Shown piece by piece: positions 1 through 6,042 of a stretch of DNA of 6,048 nucleotides. A model generated the notes under the pieces. It saw only the letters and a list, made by a program, of their open reading frames with translations, searched no databases and had not been told where the DNA came from. Made by a program: the position numbers and the translations under genes. This DNA comes from Bacillota bacterium (GTDB lineage Bacteria > Bacillota > Bacilli > Alicyclobacillales > SLC66). The DNA lies in assembly GCA_021821185.1 (NCBI GenBank), contig JAKACU010000111.1, forward strand, positions 1 through 6,048, given 5' to 3'. The first letter of the stretch is position 1. Each line of letters opens with the position of its first letter.

Positions 1-261
1 AACGAGGATGCGCTCACCGTCGAGGCGAGGCGCCGGAACGCCTAGAGCGATGGACACGGCCGCTTGCTCATGCGATATCCGCGGAACCTGGCGCAACTCT
101 TCGATAACGGCCAGCAACCCCTGCACCTCTGCGTCGTACTGCTCGCGAAGCGTGGTGAGTTCTTGTTCGAGTTGCACCACGCGCTGTGCGGACGTGGTGT
201 CTGACCGTCGTTCCCGCTCCCGGTCGACCGTGAGTCTCGCCGGTGTTTTGTAACCAATCAC
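1..261 (-). CDS. Partial CDS, coiled-coil protein of unknown function (N-terminal 87 residues)
   Basis: A reading frame stays open from a GTG at 261-259 to the left edge, so only the N-terminus is present and the stop lies outside the window. The product begins VIGYKTPARLTVD, then has an Arg/Glu-rich stretch (residues 14-19). A clear heptad series follows, with Val28, Leu31, Leu35, Leu38, Tyr42, Leu49, Val52 and Leu56 at a/d positions, so residues 28-56 should form a coiled coil. Residues 63-80 (Ala/Val-rich, ending LGVPAPRL) resemble a short helix-turn-helix but are too short to prove one. Codon third positions are GC-rich, as expected of real coding sequence, and the two competing minus-strand frames give Arg/Ser/Thr-rich nonsense. 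The start is uncertain: an AAAAGG lies 13 nt upstream, rather far, and an in-frame stop just before it excludes a longer protein. I do not recognise the family. Confidence 0.6.
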   Translation of the reverse strand, partial: MIGYKTPARLTVDRERERRSDTTSAQRVVQLEQELTTLREQYDAEVQGLLAVIEELRQVPRISHEQAAVSIALGVPAPRLDGERILV

Positions 262-317
262 GAACCAACCATAACCTTTTCAACCCTTTTCTTTAGCTCC
301 TCAAACTTGAAGGCAAC

Positions 318-349
318 ATTGGGCAACGGAAAATTGCTGAATTGGGCAA
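318..349. repeat. Two 9-bp direct repeats, ATTGGGCAA, 23 bp apart
   Basis: ATTGGGCAA occurs at 318-326 and again at 341-349, in the spacer between the left partial gene and the end of the PucR gene. The 23-bp offset is close to two helical turns, so both copies face the same side of the DNA, as expected for a tandem operator. They lie 57-88 bp upstream of the GTG start of the left gene. A perfect TATAAT on the minus strand (392-397) lies further upstream but has no recognisable -35 partner. A regulatory role is inferred from position only. The rest of the 262-448 spacer shows no terminator with a clear stem and T-run. Confidence 0.35.
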
Positions 350-448
350 TTAATTCGTAAACTCACGCTAGGGAAAATGAAGCATCGGGCGATTATAGAG
401 ATTCATGGGTTTATGTGGTTCTGGATACTCTGAATCGTGAACTTGCGT

Positions 449-2089
449 CTATATGAGCGGCCTAATCAACAGGGCCATCCTGATACACAAGGTTTCGCCG
501 GCATCGTGTACATTCCACGAGAGCTTCTCTTGGCATTTGGCGAGTCTGTACTTGACGGTATTGGGGTGCACGTACAGTTCTCTGGCTGTTGCAGTGATGT
601 GGAAATTATTGTTAAAATATGATGTGAGCGTTTGAATGAGTTCGAAATCGTCTCCATTTTGCGGATCGGCAAGATCCTTCAGCGAGTTTTGACAAAACTC
701 ACGTTGGTAATGAACCGGAATCATGCCTATAAGATCCATTAGCTCTTTGGCTCGATAGGAACGCACAAACTTTCGGTTTCCTTCCCTATAACCAGATTGC
801 AGGTTCTCAAAGGCCTCCGAGAACGATGCGGGAATCTTGCCCATACGACTGACGGCGTTTCCAATCCCAAAGGATATGGAAATCTGCAATGCTATCTCGA
901 TCTCTTGTTGCATGGTGCGCGCGAATTCTGGCAAGGCTTGCTCCAACACGTCATAGGATTGAAACGTTGTCAAAAGAACGTAAAGATCTCCCTTTGTAAA
1001 TAACACGGCATGAAAATCGTGGCTGATGATCAGGCGAGTGATTAAATCGTACACTGCATTTTTTTGAAACTCGATTTTACTCTTCTCTGGAATCAACTTT
1101 CGGTGATGCACCTCAGTTGATTCGTCTATCTTTCCGGCCATGCATGCGTAATGGGCGCCTTCTGTGAGACCGTACTGCTTACCACGCAGTAAGATTTCCG
1201 TCTCGGAAGACATTTCGCCATCGAGCAGGACTGCAAAGAATTCATTCTTCATTCGCCTTGACTGCTCTTCAATGGCGTGTTGCTTAATCAACTCGAATGC
1301 CACAATGGTAGCGGCTTGTTCTAGAGCAAGCGTGATGAATGTATCGCGCTCTTGCATCTGACCAAGACTTACGATGTACCCAGTGCGTAGATCCGTTTGA
1401 ACCGAATAGATTGACACCACGACGCCAGTTGAAGAAACATAGGGAACGGACGAATTTGGGGGGAGTTGTGGGGTGTCCTCCAATCTCTCGGTGAGGGCTG
1501 AAAGCATGCCGTCGTGGATGGAATCACGTCTCGTGCCGTGCGCGAGCTTGACCGCATCCCACATACATAGCTGCCCATCCACAATGATAGTGGGTTGTTT
1601 CAAAATCATGGACAGGTTTTTGGAGATCGCCGATAATCCTTGGCCATGTAGAATTAACCCTGCAAATTGTTTGTGCATTTCCATCGCATAGCGCAGTTCC
1701 TCTGTCTTGCTATTTAGGATGAAAGATAATATTTGGTGCAATGCCTCCGCAAGATCCACCTCAAATGGAATTTCGATGACAGTAAAACCCAATTTGTCTG
1801 CGTGTTGTTTTACGGCATCAGGTATTTCTGCCAGGAAGCGTTTTGTTTTTAGGCATAAAGCTGCGCATTCATGTTCTTTCATCTCCTCTATAAGGCGCAT
1901 CAGAGCTGTCGGGTCGTCCTTAATCAGATACGCAGTCGTAAGCAAAATCTCATTTGGTTTCAAAAACTCGGCAATGTCTGGCGCATCCATCATGTCAACC
2001 CATTCTACTTCGTGCGAGGTTCCCAATGAACCAGCGACTACGCGAGCTTCGTTCAGAAGCGGAATGTTCAACAGGTCGAACACCTTCAT
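449..2089 (-). CDS. PucR-family transcriptional regulator
   Basis: A 546-residue cytoplasmic DNA-binding protein of the PucR/CdaR class; Bacillus PucR controls purine catabolism, and relatives sense many small metabolites. Residues 1 to about 125 fit the PucR N-terminal ligand-sensing domain (MKVFDLLNIPLL start, then PNEILLTTAYLI at 45-56). Roughly 290-430 fits the degenerate GGDEF-like middle domain (ISFGIGNAV at 404-412). Residues 482-540 fit the C-terminal PucR helix-turn-helix (FNNNFHITATARELYVHPNTVKYRL, about 492-516). The length is normal for the full three-part architecture. ATG at 2089-2087 is preceded by AAGGGGG (2097-2103) with a 7-nt gap, a strong ribosome site. It is transcribed divergently from the permease and hydrolase genes, the usual arrangement for a local regulator of a catabolic cassette, so it probably controls them and perhaps itself. 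Family assignment is secure; ligand, and activator or repressor mode, are unknown. Confidence 0.93.
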   Translation of the reverse strand: MKVFDLLNIPLLNEARVVAGSLGTSHEVEWVDMMDAPDIAEFLKPNEILLTTAYLIKDDPTALMRLIEEMKEHECAALCLKTKRFLAEIPDAVKQHADKLGFTVIEIPFEVDLAEALHQILSFILNSKTEELRYAMEMHKQFAGLILHGQGLSAISKNLSMILKQPTIIVDGQLCMWDAVKLAHGTRRDSIHDGMLSALTERLEDTPQLPPNSSVPYVSSTGVVVSIYSVQTDLRTGYIVSLGQMQERDTFITLALEQAATIVAFELIKQHAIEEQSRRMKNEFFAVLLDGEMSSETEILLRGKQYGLTEGAHYACMAGKIDESTEVHHRKLIPEKSKIEFQKNAVYDLITRLIISHDFHAVLFTKGDLYVLLTTFQSYDVLEQALPEFARTMQQEIEIALQISISFGIGNAVSRMGKIPASFSEAFENLQSGYREGNRKFVRSYRAKELMDLIGMIPVHYQREFCQNSLKDLADPQNGDDFELIQTLTSYFNNNFHITATARELYVHPNTVKYRLAKCQEKLSWNVHDAGETLCIRMALLIRPLI

Positions 2090-2105
2090 ACAAATACCCC
2101 CTTGA

Positions 2106-2122
2106 TGTTATATATGATTACA
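2106..2122. promoter_or_regulatory. Candidate GlnR/TnrA-type nitrogen box at the PucR-gene promoter
   Basis: TGTTA-TATATGA-TTACA matches the known Bacillus GlnR/TnrA consensus TGTNA-N7-TNACA at every fixed base, and flanking A/T extends the dyad to ATGT...ACAT (2105-2123). The spacer is AT-rich, as in characterised sites. It lies just upstream of the regulator's ribosome site and overlaps the candidate minus-strand -10 element. That position fits repression better than activation. Binding by a GlnR-like protein is inferred. Confidence 0.5.
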
Positions 2123-2147
2123 TAAACAAACGGAACGAATCTGTCCA
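2117..2147 (-). promoter_or_regulatory. Candidate promoter of the PucR-family gene
   Basis: On the minus strand a -35-like TGGACA (2142-2147, one mismatch to TTGACA) is followed after 19 bp by TGTAAT (2117-2122, one mismatch to TATAAT). An alternative -10, TATGTA (2119-2124), has ideal 17-bp spacing but a poorer match. Either would start transcription about 20 nt before the ATG, within the nitrogen-type box. Confidence 0.35.
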
Positions 2148-2222
2148 GGGCCACAGTACATTGCTGTATGTCACCTTTTGTTGTCGAATTCGCACAAGAT
2201 GCTTCTCTTATTTTATCACATT

Positions 2223-2247
2223 CTGATAATGACTTCCGATGTATCAG
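2223..2247. repeat. Inverted repeat CTGATA-N13-TATCAG upstream of the permease gene
   Basis: Perfect 6-bp arms at 2223-2228 and 2242-2247 have half-sites 19 bp apart centre to centre, about two helical turns, and enclose the candidate -35 element of the permease promoter. This is a plausible dimer-binding operator, possibly for the divergent PucR-type regulator. It does not obviously resemble the motif described for Bacillus PucR, so the assignment is inference. Confidence 0.35.
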
Positions 2248-2257
2248 GCTTTATTAT
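2229..2257 (+). promoter_or_regulatory. Candidate sigma-A-type promoter of the permease-hydrolase operon
   Basis: ATGACT (2229-2234, four of six matches to TTGACA) and TATTAT (2252-2257, five of six matches to TATAAT) are separated by 17 bp. Transcription would start near 2264 and give a leader of about 57 nt. The -35 sits inside the CTGATA inverted repeat, and the -10 and start site meet the nitrogen-type box at 2257-2273, so the promoter looks doubly controlled. Confidence 0.4.
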
Positions 2258-2273
2258 GTCAGTTAACATGACA
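2257..2273. promoter_or_regulatory. Candidate GlnR/TnrA-type nitrogen box at the permease promoter
   Basis: TGTCA-GTTAACA-TGACA matches TGTNA-N7-TNACA exactly and is a perfect 5-bp dyad, extended to 6 bp by flanking A2256 and T2274. It begins at the last base of the predicted -10 and covers the predicted start site, where a bound GlnR-like protein would block transcription. It is the second such site in this 231-bp region, 151 bp centre to centre from the one at 2106-2122. Confidence 0.55.
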
Positions 2274-2320
2274 TTGATGATGGTCGCCAGAGGGTCTGCC
2301 GTGTTCAGGAGGGACCTACC

Positions 2321-3751
2321 ATGAAAAAGGGGGTAACAGCAATGGGCGAACAACCGAAGAGTTTTGTTCAGCGTTTGGGCTTTCCCGAGACAATCGCAAT
2401 GTCGATCGCGCTCATGGCGCCAACAACGGGCGTCGCGCTAAATACGCCCTTCTTGGCTCAATCGGCAGGGTACAACGTGCCACTCGCCTTTTTTATTACC
2501 ACATTGGCCATTTTGGCAGTCGGCATTGCATTCATTCGGCTGTCCAAGGAATACGCCCATGCTGGATCGGTGTATGGACTGACTCGGACAGTGTTGGGGG
2601 ACAGGGCCGGGTTAGTATCGGGTTGGGCGCTGCTGTTAACCTATGTTGGATTCATCGCGGCCTTGCTAGCGGGATTCGGACAGTTCGCTCAACTGTTTTT
2701 GCAGAGCGTGGCAGGTGTCCATATTCGCTGGCCCATCTATGCGTTTGTTGCCGGCGGGGTGATTTGGTGGATGGCCCACAACGATATACGACTCTCTGCC
2801 AAACTCATGTTGTCATTCGAGGTAGTCAGTGTCGTTGTGTCGTTTGTCGCCTCCATTCTGATCCTGCTCCACAGTGGTGTATCGGCGGTGACTGCTTCAA
2901 GGCCGTTTATCATTGGCCCGAATGGAATAACGGGTCTCAGCAGCGCGCTTGTGTTCGGGGTTCTTACTTTTATTGGATTTGAAGGTGCGGTCATTTTAGG
3001 CGAAGAGGCGAAACAGCCCAGCAAATCGGTTCCAAGGTCTGTATTATGGAGTCTATTGTTGGCTGGAGTGTTTTTCACGTTCGTAAGTTATGCTCAAACA
3101 ATCGGATTCGGTGAACAGCCTGCCCAGGTTCAACAATTTGCGACTTCGGCGGCCCCAATGAACCAGTTGGCGGTTCGCTACGTTGGTTCATGGATGGCCA
3201 TGGCGCTGGACGGCGGAGCAACCATAAGCACATTCGCCTGCGCCTTGGCCAGCTTAAATGGTGCATCGCATATCATTTTTGCCCTCGCCCGCGACGGATT
3301 CTTGCCGCCGCATTTGGGGCGGCTGGATGCGAGAACTCAGTCGCCAAGATCGGCCGTACTGGTTGCAACGGTGGGAGGGTTGGGACTGTTGGCTGTTTCC
3401 ATCCCTTATCTTGCATCTGCGGCGAATGTGTATGGTGCGCTGGGTGCTCTGGCCACATTTGGTGTGCTTATTGCGTATGCGATGGTGAACGTTACTTCCT
3501 TGGCGCGCTATGCAAATTCCGATTACAGAGCAAAGAGATACCACTACTTCGCCGCTCCCGTCATTGGCTTGGCTCTGCTTGTTTACACATTCTATGCGAA
3601 CGTATTTCCGATACCGCCGGCGCCGATCAAGTACTTTCCCTACGTATTGATTATCTATCTGGCAATTGCAACGATTGGATCGTTGATCTTCCGTCAACGA
3701 TCGCAGCGTGTTTATCCCGTCATGCAGTCTGAGAGAGGAGATGGCGTATAG
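2321..3751 (+). CDS. APC-superfamily amino acid permease
   Basis: A 476-residue integral membrane transporter of the amino acid-polyamine-organocation superfamily, expected to import an amino acid-like or amide substrate by cation symport or exchange. Hydrophobic segments run almost the whole length, consistent with the family's usual 12 helices. The first helix has the unwound PTTGVAL-type segment (about 34-40). The hallmark helix 6/loop motif FIGFEGAVILGEEAKQPSKSVP lies at about 217-238, and the cytosolic ARDGFLPPHLGRLDART motif at about 323-339. ATG at 2321 follows AGGAGGG with a 7-nt gap. A second ATG at 2342 also has an AAGGGGG ahead of it and would shorten the protein by seven residues. 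The stop overlaps the start of the downstream amidohydrolase gene by one base, indicating one operon with coupled translation. Substrate cannot be read from the sequence; the neighbour suggests a compound containing, or giving rise to, an amide. Confidence 0.9.
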   Translation: MKKGVTAMGEQPKSFVQRLGFPETIAMSIALMAPTTGVALNTPFLAQSAGYNVPLAFFITTLAILAVGIAFIRLSKEYAHAGSVYGLTRTVLGDRAGLVSGWALLLTYVGFIAALLAGFGQFAQLFLQSVAGVHIRWPIYAFVAGGVIWWMAHNDIRLSAKLMLSFEVVSVVVSFVASILILLHSGVSAVTASRPFIIGPNGITGLSSALVFGVLTFIGFEGAVILGEEAKQPSKSVPRSVLWSLLLAGVFFTFVSYAQTIGFGEQPAQVQQFATSAAPMNQLAVRYVGSWMAMALDGGATISTFACALASLNGASHIIFALARDGFLPPHLGRLDARTQSPRSAVLVATVGGLGLLAVSIPYLASAANVYGALGALATFGVLIAYAMVNVTSLARYANSDYRAKRYHYFAAPVIGLALLVYTFYANVFPIPPAPIKYFPYVLIIYLAIATIGSLIFRQRSQRVYPVMQSERGDGV

Positions 3752-4671
3752 TGCATTCCGTCCATGTGGGGTCTCAGCACATTCACGCTTACTGGGATCG
3801 GTCACTTACTCCCGCAATGCGGGTATCGCCGGGTGCGGAGATCTACTTTGATTTGCCAGATGCGTCGAACGGCGAGATTACCCCGGAAACGACCGTAGAC
3901 CAAGTGAAGAACATTGATTTTAGAAAACTCGATCCGCTTGTGGGACCCATTTGGATCGATGGTGCTGAAGCGGGTGACGCCTTAGAGATTGACATTTTGG
4001 AGATCGCACCCAAGCGATTTGGATGGACAGCGATTCTTCCTGATTTTGGCCTCCTAAAAGACCATTTCAAGGATCCGAGATTCACGATTTGGGATGTGGA
4101 AGGGCGACGCGAGATTGAGATTATGGGTGGAGCAAAATTTCGATTGAACCCAATGATTGGATGTTTGGGGGTGGCTCCGCCCGAAACTGGACGCTTCCCG
4201 TCGATCACACCAACTCTCGCAGGCGGAAACATTGATGTACGGTATGTGGTGACAGGGAACAGAGTGATTCTTCCCGTCTATAATGAGGGTGCGCTCCTGT
4301 CCATCGCTGATGCGCATGCCATACAGGGCGAAGGGGAAATTAGCGGTACGGCAGTTGAATGTCCGGCCAGCGCCGCAATTAGGGTTAAACTGCACAAACA
4401 GGCGAATATAAAAGCGCCTCAAATTGACGCAGTCAACATGGAACGGTTTAATGAATCGAGCTGCAAAATATTCTTGGGGATTGGTCCAGATCTAATGAAA
4501 GCTTCCCAAGAGGCGGCGCTGCAAGCGGTGGAAGCGCTCGCCCGTTCCCTTAAGGTTGACGAGGCAAGCGCATATAACCTGCTTGGTATTGTCGGTGATC
4601 TCAGAATACACGAGATCGTTGATCAACCCAATTGGGTGGTGGGGTGCCTCATTCCAGCCAGGTTGTTCTAA
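3751..4671 (+). CDS. Acetamidase/formamidase-family amidohydrolase
   Basis: A 306-residue soluble cytosolic enzyme of the FmdA/AmdA family, whose members hydrolyse short amides such as formamide or acetamide to ammonia and a carboxylic acid. Length matches the shorter bacterial class. Family signatures: GGNIDVR at 158-164, the acidic/His cluster DAHAIQGEGE at 187-196 (probable metal-binding and catalytic region, with Asp187, His189, Glu194 and Glu196), and the C-terminal VGDLRIHEIVD at 281-291. No signal peptide is visible. The start is GTG at 3751, overlapping the permease stop as TAGTG, with GAGAGGAG ending 10 nt upstream. The ATG at 3741 is in another frame. Coupling to a transporter and a divergent PucR regulator points to nitrogen scavenging. 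Typical family members prefer GDGE where this has GEGE, a conservative change. The true substrate could be another amide; formamidase activity is not proven. Confidence 0.88.
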   Translation: MHSVHVGSQHIHAYWDRSLTPAMRVSPGAEIYFDLPDASNGEITPETTVDQVKNIDFRKLDPLVGPIWIDGAEAGDALEIDILEIAPKRFGWTAILPDFGLLKDHFKDPRFTIWDVEGRREIEIMGGAKFRLNPMIGCLGVAPPETGRFPSITPTLAGGNIDVRYVVTGNRVILPVYNEGALLSIADAHAIQGEGEISGTAVECPASAAIRVKLHKQANIKAPQIDAVNMERFNESSCKIFLGIGPDLMKASQEAALQAVEALARSLKVDEASAYNLLGIVGDLRIHEIVDQPNWVVGCLIPARLF

Positions 4672-4784
4672 ACACGAGGAGAGTGACGCGCGTTGATGGA
4701 ATTCGCGCTCGGAGTTCTCGACCCTTTTCGGGCAGTCTCTGTATGTCTTTGCGGATTCTGCGCGCCGTTCGGCCATGGATGGCG

Positions 4785-5744
4785 CTACCGCTCGAATCGA
4801 AAGCGAAAACTTTGCAGGACGAGATAGCTGAGCAGCGTAAACAGCACCATCAGCAGCGAGACATGCAGCAGATCGGCGTTCAGGCTGATGTTGCTGAGAA
4901 TGACATAGGCGCCGCTGGCGATCTGCAAAATGACGAGCATAAGCAAATAAACGGCCGCCCGGAACACATCGGGACGCGAATGCCGCGTCTTCCGGAGTTG
5001 CACCAGAAGGACGGTCACGATGACGGCGAGGCCGACCGCTATCAGACGATGAAAAAACACCAGTCCGACATTGCCGGAAAAGCCGGGGAACCACAGGCCA
5101 TTGCACAGAGGCCAACCCTGGCACGCCGCGGCCGCACCGTGAAACGCCACATCCGATCCAACGTAAACGGCGGCAAACACATAGATCCACGTCCATCTGA
5201 TAAATTGGCGGAGGCCGCGGCTGAGCTGCTGATTTCTGAGTGTCAAGCCATTTGGGGCAGACTCCTGGTACGCTCGGTACTGAAACAGGAATACGGTCAG
5301 GAGAGCGACGCCGACCTGTCCGAGGAGACCGAATCCCAAATGCAGCGCAAGGACGCTTGGCGGGTTTACAAACACCACCGCAAGAGCTCCCAGAATGGAT
5401 TGGATGACAATGAAGCCAAGGGCGATTGAGGCGAATACGCGCACCTCCAGCCAACTCCCAAAGCGGCGCCACGCCCAGATGGCGAACACCACGGCGATGA
5501 TCGCAAAAAAGCCGACAAGGAAGCGATGGAGAAATTCGATGATGACGTGCGCGTTGTTGAACGTCGGAAGGACCTGGCCATTGCACAGCGGCCAATCAGG
5601 CCCGCAGCCCTCCGCTGAATTGGTCTGAGTATCCAAAAATCCGATAAAGTTGACGACAAACATTCCAAATGTGGCGATGCATCCGAACCACAAAAGCGGT
5701 TTTGACGGAATTCTCCATTCGACTTCATTGCGCTCCGGCGACAA
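4785..5744 (-). CDS. ctaA: Heme A synthase (COX15/CtaA family)
   Basis: A membrane enzyme that oxidises the C8 methyl of heme O to the formyl group of heme A, the cofactor of aa3-type cytochrome oxidase. The 319-residue length is near that of Bacillus CtaA. Eight hydrophobic segments form two four-helix halves. All hallmark residues are visible: an extracellular cysteine pair in each half (Cys47/Cys54, Cys208/Cys214), the EFLHR motif with Glu70 and His73, and the remaining heme-ligand-type histidines His135 (LHLG), His232 (FFHR) and His294 (LLHV). The start is TTG at 5744-5742, chosen because GGAGGT lies 8-9 nt upstream, and the protein then begins with a short polar segment before helix 1. 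No cytochrome oxidase or heme O synthase gene is adjacent in this window, and the gene converges on the amidohydrolase gene with no clear terminator in the 113-bp gap. Long open frames in both directions over this gene are high-GC shadows. Confidence 0.95.
   Translation of the reverse strand: MSPERNEVEWRIPSKPLLWFGCIATFGMFVVNFIGFLDTQTNSAEGCGPDWPLCNGQVLPTFNNAHVIIEFLHRFLVGFFAIIAVVFAIWAWRRFGSWLEVRVFASIALGFIVIQSILGALAVVFVNPPSVLALHLGFGLLGQVGVALLTVFLFQYRAYQESAPNGLTLRNQQLSRGLRQFIRWTWIYVFAAVYVGSDVAFHGAAAACQGWPLCNGLWFPGFSGNVGLVFFHRLIAVGLAVIVTVLLVQLRKTRHSRPDVFRAAVYLLMLVILQIASGAYVILSNISLNADLLHVSLLMVLFTLLSYLVLQSFRFRFER
5096..5115. repeat. Copy 1 of a 20-bp near-identical repeat inside ctaA
   Basis: This 20-bp stretch matches 5576-5595 at 19 of 20 positions, differing only at 5109. 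Both copies encode Trp-Pro-Leu-Cys-Asn-Gly around the second cysteine of each extracellular pair (Cys214 here, Cys54 in the other). The offset is exactly 480 bp, or 160 codons, reflecting the internal duplication of the CtaA fold. Confidence 0.8.
5576..5595. repeat. Copy 2 of the 20-bp near-identical repeat inside ctaA
   Basis: Partner of 5096-5115, encoding the WPLCNG segment around Cys54 in the N-terminal half of heme A synthase. The DNA identity (19/20) exceeds what protein conservation alone requires. Confidence 0.8.
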
Positions 5745-5777
5745 GGGGCGACACCTCCGGGATATTGGGCGTGACGG

Positions 5778-5790
5778 ACAGGCGTCCTGT
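5778..5790. repeat. Inverted repeat ACAGG-CGT-CCTGT in the ctaA leader
   Basis: Perfect 5-bp arms around a 3-bp centre lie just downstream of the candidate ctaA -10 element and 33 bp ahead of the TTG start. It could be a compact operator or a small hairpin in the ctaA transcript. No known regulator motif is recognised. Confidence 0.35.
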
Positions 5791-5793
5791 ACC

Positions 5794-5799
5794 AGTATA
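5794..5799 (-). promoter_or_regulatory. Candidate -10 element for ctaA
   Basis: TATACT on the minus strand matches TATAAT at five of six bases and would place the transcript start about 40 nt before the TTG start codon. No good -35 hexamer is found 16-18 bp upstream, so the promoter may need an activator (ResD plays this role in Bacillus) or use another sigma factor. Confidence 0.3.
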
Positions 5800-5982
5800 A
5801 GCCACGCGCAGGCTCCGCGACATAGAAAATCATGAAGAGCTATTTGCGCTGTTGTTTTTTTGCGAACTGAGGACCATATATTACCTGTCAGAGGACCTCG
5901 TTTCGCAGGAAGGTCACCCTGTTTCTGAGTGATTGGCTGCCTTCAGACCTGGATTGCTCGAAAAATGGGCACCCGGATACAG

Positions 5983-6042
5983 TTATCCACAAATAGCGGC
6001 CTGTGGATAACGATTTCGCCCCACTTATCCCCTTGTGGATAT
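5983..6042. other. DnaA-box cluster, probable edge of a replication origin region
   Basis: Two perfect DnaA boxes lie close together: TTATCCACA at 5983-5991 on the plus strand and its complement TGTGGATAA at 6002-6010. They are followed by TGTGGATAT at 6034-6042 (one mismatch, minus orientation) and a weak TTATCCCCT at 6025-6033 (two mismatches). Three strong or near-perfect boxes in 60 bp is the density seen upstream of dnaA at Gram-positive chromosomal origins. No AT-rich unwinding element and no dnaA gene are visible before the window ends, so the full origin cannot be confirmed. Positions 5835-5980 hold no gene that I can support. Confidence 0.65.

Follow-up and report, generated by a model that had tools for sequence, protein, structure and literature searches.

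We found two exact GlnR-type boxes in the spacer between a PucR-type regulator gene and a divergent permease-amidase gene pair in a contig of an uncultured Bacilli lineage (6,048 bp, analysed at its full length and called the window below). The predicted sites are best explained by nitrogen control through GlnR only, which would probably repress the cassette (PucR regulator, permease and formamidase/acetamidase-like enzyme) under nitrogen excess, and we consider this explanation likely. The sites and their strength, GlnR in the nearest family, the box at ammonium-transporter, urease and purine-permease genes, and the recurrence at pucR-type loci are computed results. An earlier note on this DNA had suggested that general nitrogen control is layered on the local regulator and that the cassette belongs to a nitrogen regulon; the family GlnR, the boxes at nitrogen genes and the recurrence at pucR-type loci argue for this proposal. 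The cassette would be tied to nitrogen scavenging, with a predicted sign of control (off under nitrogen excess).

Genes of the window and relatives of the host

The features of the window are listed in Table 1. The regulator belongs to the PucR family, with PucR, GGDEF-like and HTH_30 domains all present; its best relatives are 41-42% identical and, where the source names them, are found in Bacilli. The amidase gene starts with GTG and has a one-base overlap with the permease stop codon. The amidase has solved relatives (2ii1 and 2f4l), both named acetamidases. No NCBIfam model scored over its cut-off for the permease or the amidase.

Table 1. Coordinates of genes, GlnR-type boxes and candidate promoters in the window
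Feature	Position	Strand	Remarks
PucR-family transcriptional regulator, 546 aa	449..2089	minus	PF07905, PF17853, PF13556 over cut-offs
GlnR-type box 1	2106..2122	.	exact match; just upstream of pucR-type gene; extended 2105-2123, ATGTTATATATGATTACAT
Possible weak pucR promoter	2111..2139	minus	TTCGTT (2139-2134)-17-CATATA (2116-2111); by eye, below scan threshold
Possible sigma-A promoter of permease-amidase operon	2229..2257	plus	ATGACT-17-TATTAT; consensus scan 9/12, weak
GlnR-type box 2	2257..2273	.	exact match; at permease promoter; extended 2256-2274, ATGTCAGTTAACATGACAT
Amino-acid/APC-type permease, 476 aa	2321..3751	plus	PF13520, 8.2e-32
Acetamidase/formamidase-family enzyme, 306 aa	3751..4671	plus	PF03069, 2.5e-47
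ctaA	4785-5744	minus	

The CtaA of the window shares 98% identity with a protein from a MAG named Bacilli bacterium, 58% with that of Sulfobacillus thermosulfidooxidans and 47% with that of Alicyclobacillus tolerans. Among 398 genomes from the class of Alicyclobacillus cellulosilyticus, the nearest by CtaA are G339 and G375 (88-89%). The CtaA-nearest family, with 18 genomes, is called the family below.

Two exact boxes in the divergent spacer

From the pucR start (2089, minus strand) to the permease ATG (2321), the spacer measures 231 bp. A motif scan of the 6,048-bp window for TGTNA-N7-TNACA gave two exact matches and no others (TGTTATATATGATTACA at box 1 and TGTCAGTTAACATGACA at box 2). Each is extended by an A at its left edge and a T at its right edge, which confirms the pair described in the earlier note. 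Four further places in the window match with one mismatch (chance expectation of about two with up to one mismatch). Exact sites are expected 0.006 times in the spacer from mononucleotide frequencies, close to the 0.004 claimed before, and 0.014 times on average in dinucleotide shuffles. Of 20,000 dinucleotide-shuffled versions of the spacer, one had two or more exact sites and none had two extended ones, and the claim that two matches are unlikely by chance was borne out.

The strength of the boxes was scored with a matrix of P. polymyxa GlnR targets, for which 20 of the 34 sites tabulated in PMC9948412 were used. The omitted rows were those of unbound genes, the duplicates of nasD1, a 20-mer, and the second or weak sites that some bound genes have. 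Box 2 scores 23.0 bits and box 1 scores 20.8 bits, within the range of the 20 training sites (8.7-23.6 bits, scored by the matrix that contains them). The next score in the window, 8.1 bits, comes from a half-register that overlaps box 2; apart from it, the best score outside the boxes is 6.2 bits. Box 2 is closely like the P. polymyxa pucR site (ATGTCATGTAAAATGACAT).

The spacer contains one other repeat, a weak inverted one. On the plus strand, and with what we take to be the respective consensus sequences, one cre-like match with two mismatches overlaps box 1, and no CodY-like site was found in the spacer with up to four mismatches.

GlnR and its box in the nearest family

GlnR is encoded in all 18 family genomes (E 5e-50 or better) and was found adjoining glnA. 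Each genome has a single strong GlnR/TnrA-like protein, with a further MerR-type match in 5 of the 18 (E 2e-8 or weaker), and the 18 genomes show no sign of TnrA. Of the earlier name "GlnR/TnrA-type" for the boxes, the GlnR half is supported and the TnrA half is not, there being no second strong protein of this kind. The DNA-binding domain of the family GlnR matches GlnR of the solved entries 4r4e and 7tec. In an alignment of six sequences, this domain is conserved, and so is a C-terminal QG(E/D)(L/M)SRF tail, which is shared with Bacillus GlnR. The host presumably encodes GlnR as well, to judge from its family relatives. The lack of any GlnR or TnrA homologue, which had been named as a refutation, did not occur in the 18 genomes of the nearest family.

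For the two genomes nearest by CtaA, exact boxes are not in excess over the reversed control (36 vs 41 and 34 vs 45); extended boxes are in slight excess over the 18 family genomes (71 vs 53) and in G375 no commoner than in the control (3 vs 2), so that a lone match means little. The surroundings were examined for 36 of the 71 extended boxes, picked by eye for AT-richness, and for 16 regions around exact boxes of G339 and G375, picked by eye from 70. Nine of the 36 extended boxes immediately precede ammonium-transporter genes (six genes, five genomes), and three of these six genes have paired boxes 62-72 bp apart. Two more precede ureA, two a cytosine/purine permease gene, and one is found in a PucR/aminotransferase divergent spacer. 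Eight of the 36 fall within predicted reading frames, and the 3' end of an amino-acid permease gene harbours one (L258). For several others, the gene downstream has no clear link to nitrogen (GT87, SDR/HAD, MFS, or no Pfam hit). A conserved non-extended box is present at a further amtB in both G339 and G375.

We also constructed a family matrix from 12 hand-picked sites at nitrogen genes. The window boxes rank second and third of 38 on this matrix, alongside 36 exact matches of the nearest genome; one G375 training site is the ortholog of the top-ranked G339 site, which inflates the G339 rank. In the 300 bp upstream of glnR, an exact box was found in 0 of 18 family genomes. A one-mismatch site is present there in one of the 18 (4.4 bits), and the best matrix score was 12.6; the control glnR of Bacillus siamensis has an exact site of 19.8 bits. 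Since the ammonium-transporter genes of the family have the box and glnR does not, GlnR may not be autoregulated by a classical box in this family. The ranking beside glnRA, amtB and ure sites that had been proposed, run here on the family genomes, is favourable for amtB and ure and fails for glnRA. These results suggest a GlnR-only lineage with the classical box at ammonium-transporter and urease genes, not at glnR.

Single or paired GlnR-type boxes were also seen upstream of isochorismatase-family hydrolase genes of three family genomes (L234, L238 and L240 in G277, G259 and G313). The encoded enzymes are candidate nitrogen-scavenging hydrolases.

Box position and predicted sign of control

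The candidate promoter of the permease-amidase operon was the single sigma-70-like match in a scan of 2040-2380 (0.6 expected in shuffles). Its -10 shares base 2257 with box 2, so box 2 would cover the start point. On the pucR strand, box 1 has its 5' edge 33 bp from the pucR ATG and its end just 16 bp from it. A promoter fits nowhere in between, and the pucR promoter would overlap box 1 or lie upstream of it; the candidate read by eye has its -10 (CATATA) inside box 1. The claim that each box overlaps a predicted -10 or start site fits both candidate promoters, and it is weakened by the candidates themselves, one being a weak scan match and the other a by-eye reading. The positions of the boxes favour repression of both arms by the precedent of P. 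polymyxa nif, in which a GlnR site downstream of the -35/-10 represses together with glutamine-inhibited synthetase and an upstream one activates (PMC6191146).

In the predicted mechanism, one dimer of GlnR (MerR family) would bind each box, and glutamine-inhibited glutamine synthetase would make this binding more stable when nitrogen is in excess. Because the boxes appear to cover the -10 region or the start point, GlnR would then block transcription of both the pucR-type activator gene and the permease-amidase operon. Under nitrogen limitation GlnR would release and PucR would be made; together with its inducer, PucR would switch on the import and cleavage of an amide-like source of nitrogen. 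We infer the host GlnR, its binding and the choice of repression over activation; PucR as activator of the permease-amidase arm and the amide substrate are suggested by the protein families.

A TnrA-type activating position was set aside as the main reading, since the gap from box 1 to the pucR ATG is too short for a promoter. It is unlikely, if conceivable, that GlnR on both boxes mainly activates under nitrogen limitation, in the role of TnrA, at one or both promoters and from other start points. Such a role has parallels: P. polymyxa is without TnrA and its GlnR acts in both directions, as activator and as repressor (PMC9948412 and PMC6191146), and TnrA activates pucR in B. subtilis (PMC4475385). 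In the family, one amtB (L233) has its box upstream of a -35-like hexamer TTGACA, an activating position as read from the sequence, so both signs of control may occur. At another amtB (L180), the box is read just downstream of TTGACA-18-TATAGT. Activation in the window is opposed by the 16 bp between box 1 and the pucR ATG, into which a promoter would not fit, and by the scan of 2040-2380, in which no promoter-like site was found downstream of box 2. Repression by GlnR is therefore the sign that we prefer.

Recurrence of the boxes at pucR-type loci in Bacilli

We examined the best 80 of 240 pucR-type loci. A site of at least 14 bits is present within 250 bp upstream in 58 of these 80 (shuffle mean 1.25 over 20 rounds) and two such sites in 25 (shuffle mean 0); a strong site is missing in 22. 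After clustering at 70% identity, 17 of 49 groups among the same best 80 of 240 have a two-site member. Another control gave 1 hit in 240 coding windows and 0 in 160 windows further upstream; it is richer in coding DNA than the spacers are, and the shuffle control is the fairer one. In the best 80 of 240, a box is found at -46..-30 in 25 loci, and a pair at -30..-60 and -150..-210 in 22 loci with a spacing of 116-163 bp. The window pair fits these positions, with box 1 at -33, box 2 at -184 (184 bp from the pucR ATG) and a spacing of 151 bp. The conservation at related loci that the earlier note called for was thus found as sites at similar positions upstream of pucR-type genes (58 of the best 80 of 240). 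No permease or amidase was detected at these best 80 of 240 loci by tblastn at 1e-8 within at most 6 kb on each side, less in several (L070 has just 321 bp upstream).

The divergent neighbours were scanned at ten loci with one or two sites. Four encode an amidohydrolase and two an ABC ATPase; a gamma-glutamyltranspeptidase, an M20 peptidase, a dicarboxylate symporter and a class-V aminotransferase were found once each.

The recurrence upstream of pucR-type genes in many genomes, and the presence of one box at each of two divergent promoters, would also be expected if the boxes were operators of the PucR-type protein or another local regulator and resembled GlnR boxes by coincidence, through their symmetry. 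We judge this improbable. In the family, ammonium-transporter, ureA and purine-permease genes are preceded by the same motif (regions of 2.7-6 kb, in which tested neighbours only were identified). The B. subtilis PucR box, which we take to be WWWCNTTGGTTAA, is absent from the spacer with up to two mismatches (three in the best match) and occurs with at most one mismatch in just 7 of the best 80 of 240 pucR-type loci.

With GlnR as the reader of the boxes, one may ask whether the two-box pucR head is a portable control unit in Bacilli, to which varying nitrogen-scavenging genes are attached and whose transfer from one GlnR-containing host to another would carry the nitrogen control along. We put this forward tentatively and with some doubt; the two boxes might also cooperate across the divergent spacer. 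In this layout, a GlnR box lies about 31-58 bp upstream of the PucR-type gene and a second one about 115-165 bp further. The attached genes encode an amidohydrolase, gamma-glutamyltranspeptidase, ABC transporter or dicarboxylate symporter, and here the permease and amidase. The recurrent paired layout with changing partners is a lead for assigning function to such cassettes.

Comparison with known systems

GlnR/TnrA control of pucR is already in print for B. subtilis, for several Bacilli by prediction (PMC3412718) and for P. polymyxa, in which GlnR bound the pucR promoter in ChIP-qPCR and the predicted site is very similar to box 2 (PMC9948412). The window is a sound but fairly ordinary example of this known control scheme. 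P. polymyxa pucR resembles it in the PucR-type gene, the near-identical GlnR site and a species without TnrA. It differs in having one predicted site, in the table of PMC9948412, and in being named a purine-catabolism regulator, whereas two sites and a permease-amidase partner are found here. B. subtilis pucR/pucH (PMC4475385 and PMC3412718) shares general nitrogen control over a PucR-type regulator and a divergent promoter. There, however, TnrA activates pucR and pucH encodes an allantoinase, while the family studied here is GlnR-only and box 1 is very close to the ATG. Two GlnR sites (I and II) in one regulatory region are likewise found in P. polymyxa nif (PMC6191146), where the downstream one represses; both serve one promoter there, in contrast to one box per divergent promoter in the window. 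Literature searches on PucR/TnrA/formamidase, on GlnR with amidase, acetamide or formamide, and on PucR with GlnR and divergent returned neither the cassette nor the paired layout in titles and the first lines of abstracts, which is no proof of absence.

Probable accessory nature of the cassette

DNA similarity to G339 and G375 covers 4773-5836 (ctaA and its near flanks, 83% identity) and stops short of 1-4772, which contains the cassette. Different reading frames are found beside ctaA in G339 and G375, which suggests a variable site. G+C is 0.47-0.53 in the cassette genes and 0.56 in ctaA. Searches of the 18 family genomes gave no close copies of the cassette genes: the most similar full-length PucR there has 25% identity and the most similar amidase 32%. 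PucR matches at E 1e-30 occur in 2 of the 18 and amidase matches at E 1e-20 in 10 of the 18. Elsewhere, the best permease is 40% identical (398 genomes of the class) and the best amidase 41% (398 genomes of the phylum), with 41% also on plasmids. Closer amidases are protein records, with 62-65% identity or, for an incomplete copy from a Bacilli bacterium MAG, 99%. From the missing close copies, the lower G+C and the differing frames beside ctaA, the cassette is probably accessory and acquired.

The same three observations are compatible with the boxes being relics, carried in with the cassette from a donor that used GlnR or TnrA and idle in the present host. We give this little credence: the GlnR of the family has a conserved DNA-binding domain, and ammonium-transporter genes there carry the same box, so that the regulator should recognise imported copies. 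An origin by chance in the AT-rich spacer is hardly believable. Exact matches show no excess in the two genomes nearest by CtaA, but just 1 of 20,000 shuffles contained two exact sites, the scores are near the top of the P. polymyxa range and the positions are as in other pucR-type loci.

Two features at the ends of the window were also recorded. An 87-aa reading frame at 1-261 is cut by the contig end; its G+C of 0.625 is unlike that of the neighbouring cassette, and it matches no Pfam or NCBIfam model. In G339 and G375, no exact DnaA-box-like nonamer was found within about 1.5 kb on either side of ctaA. In the window, the last 66 contig bases contain (5983-6042) two exact DnaA-box-like nonamers (TTATCCACA, on opposite strands) and one with one mismatch; over the whole window, six such nonamers with up to one mismatch were counted vs 3.9 expected. 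This contig end is possibly the edge of an origin-like region.
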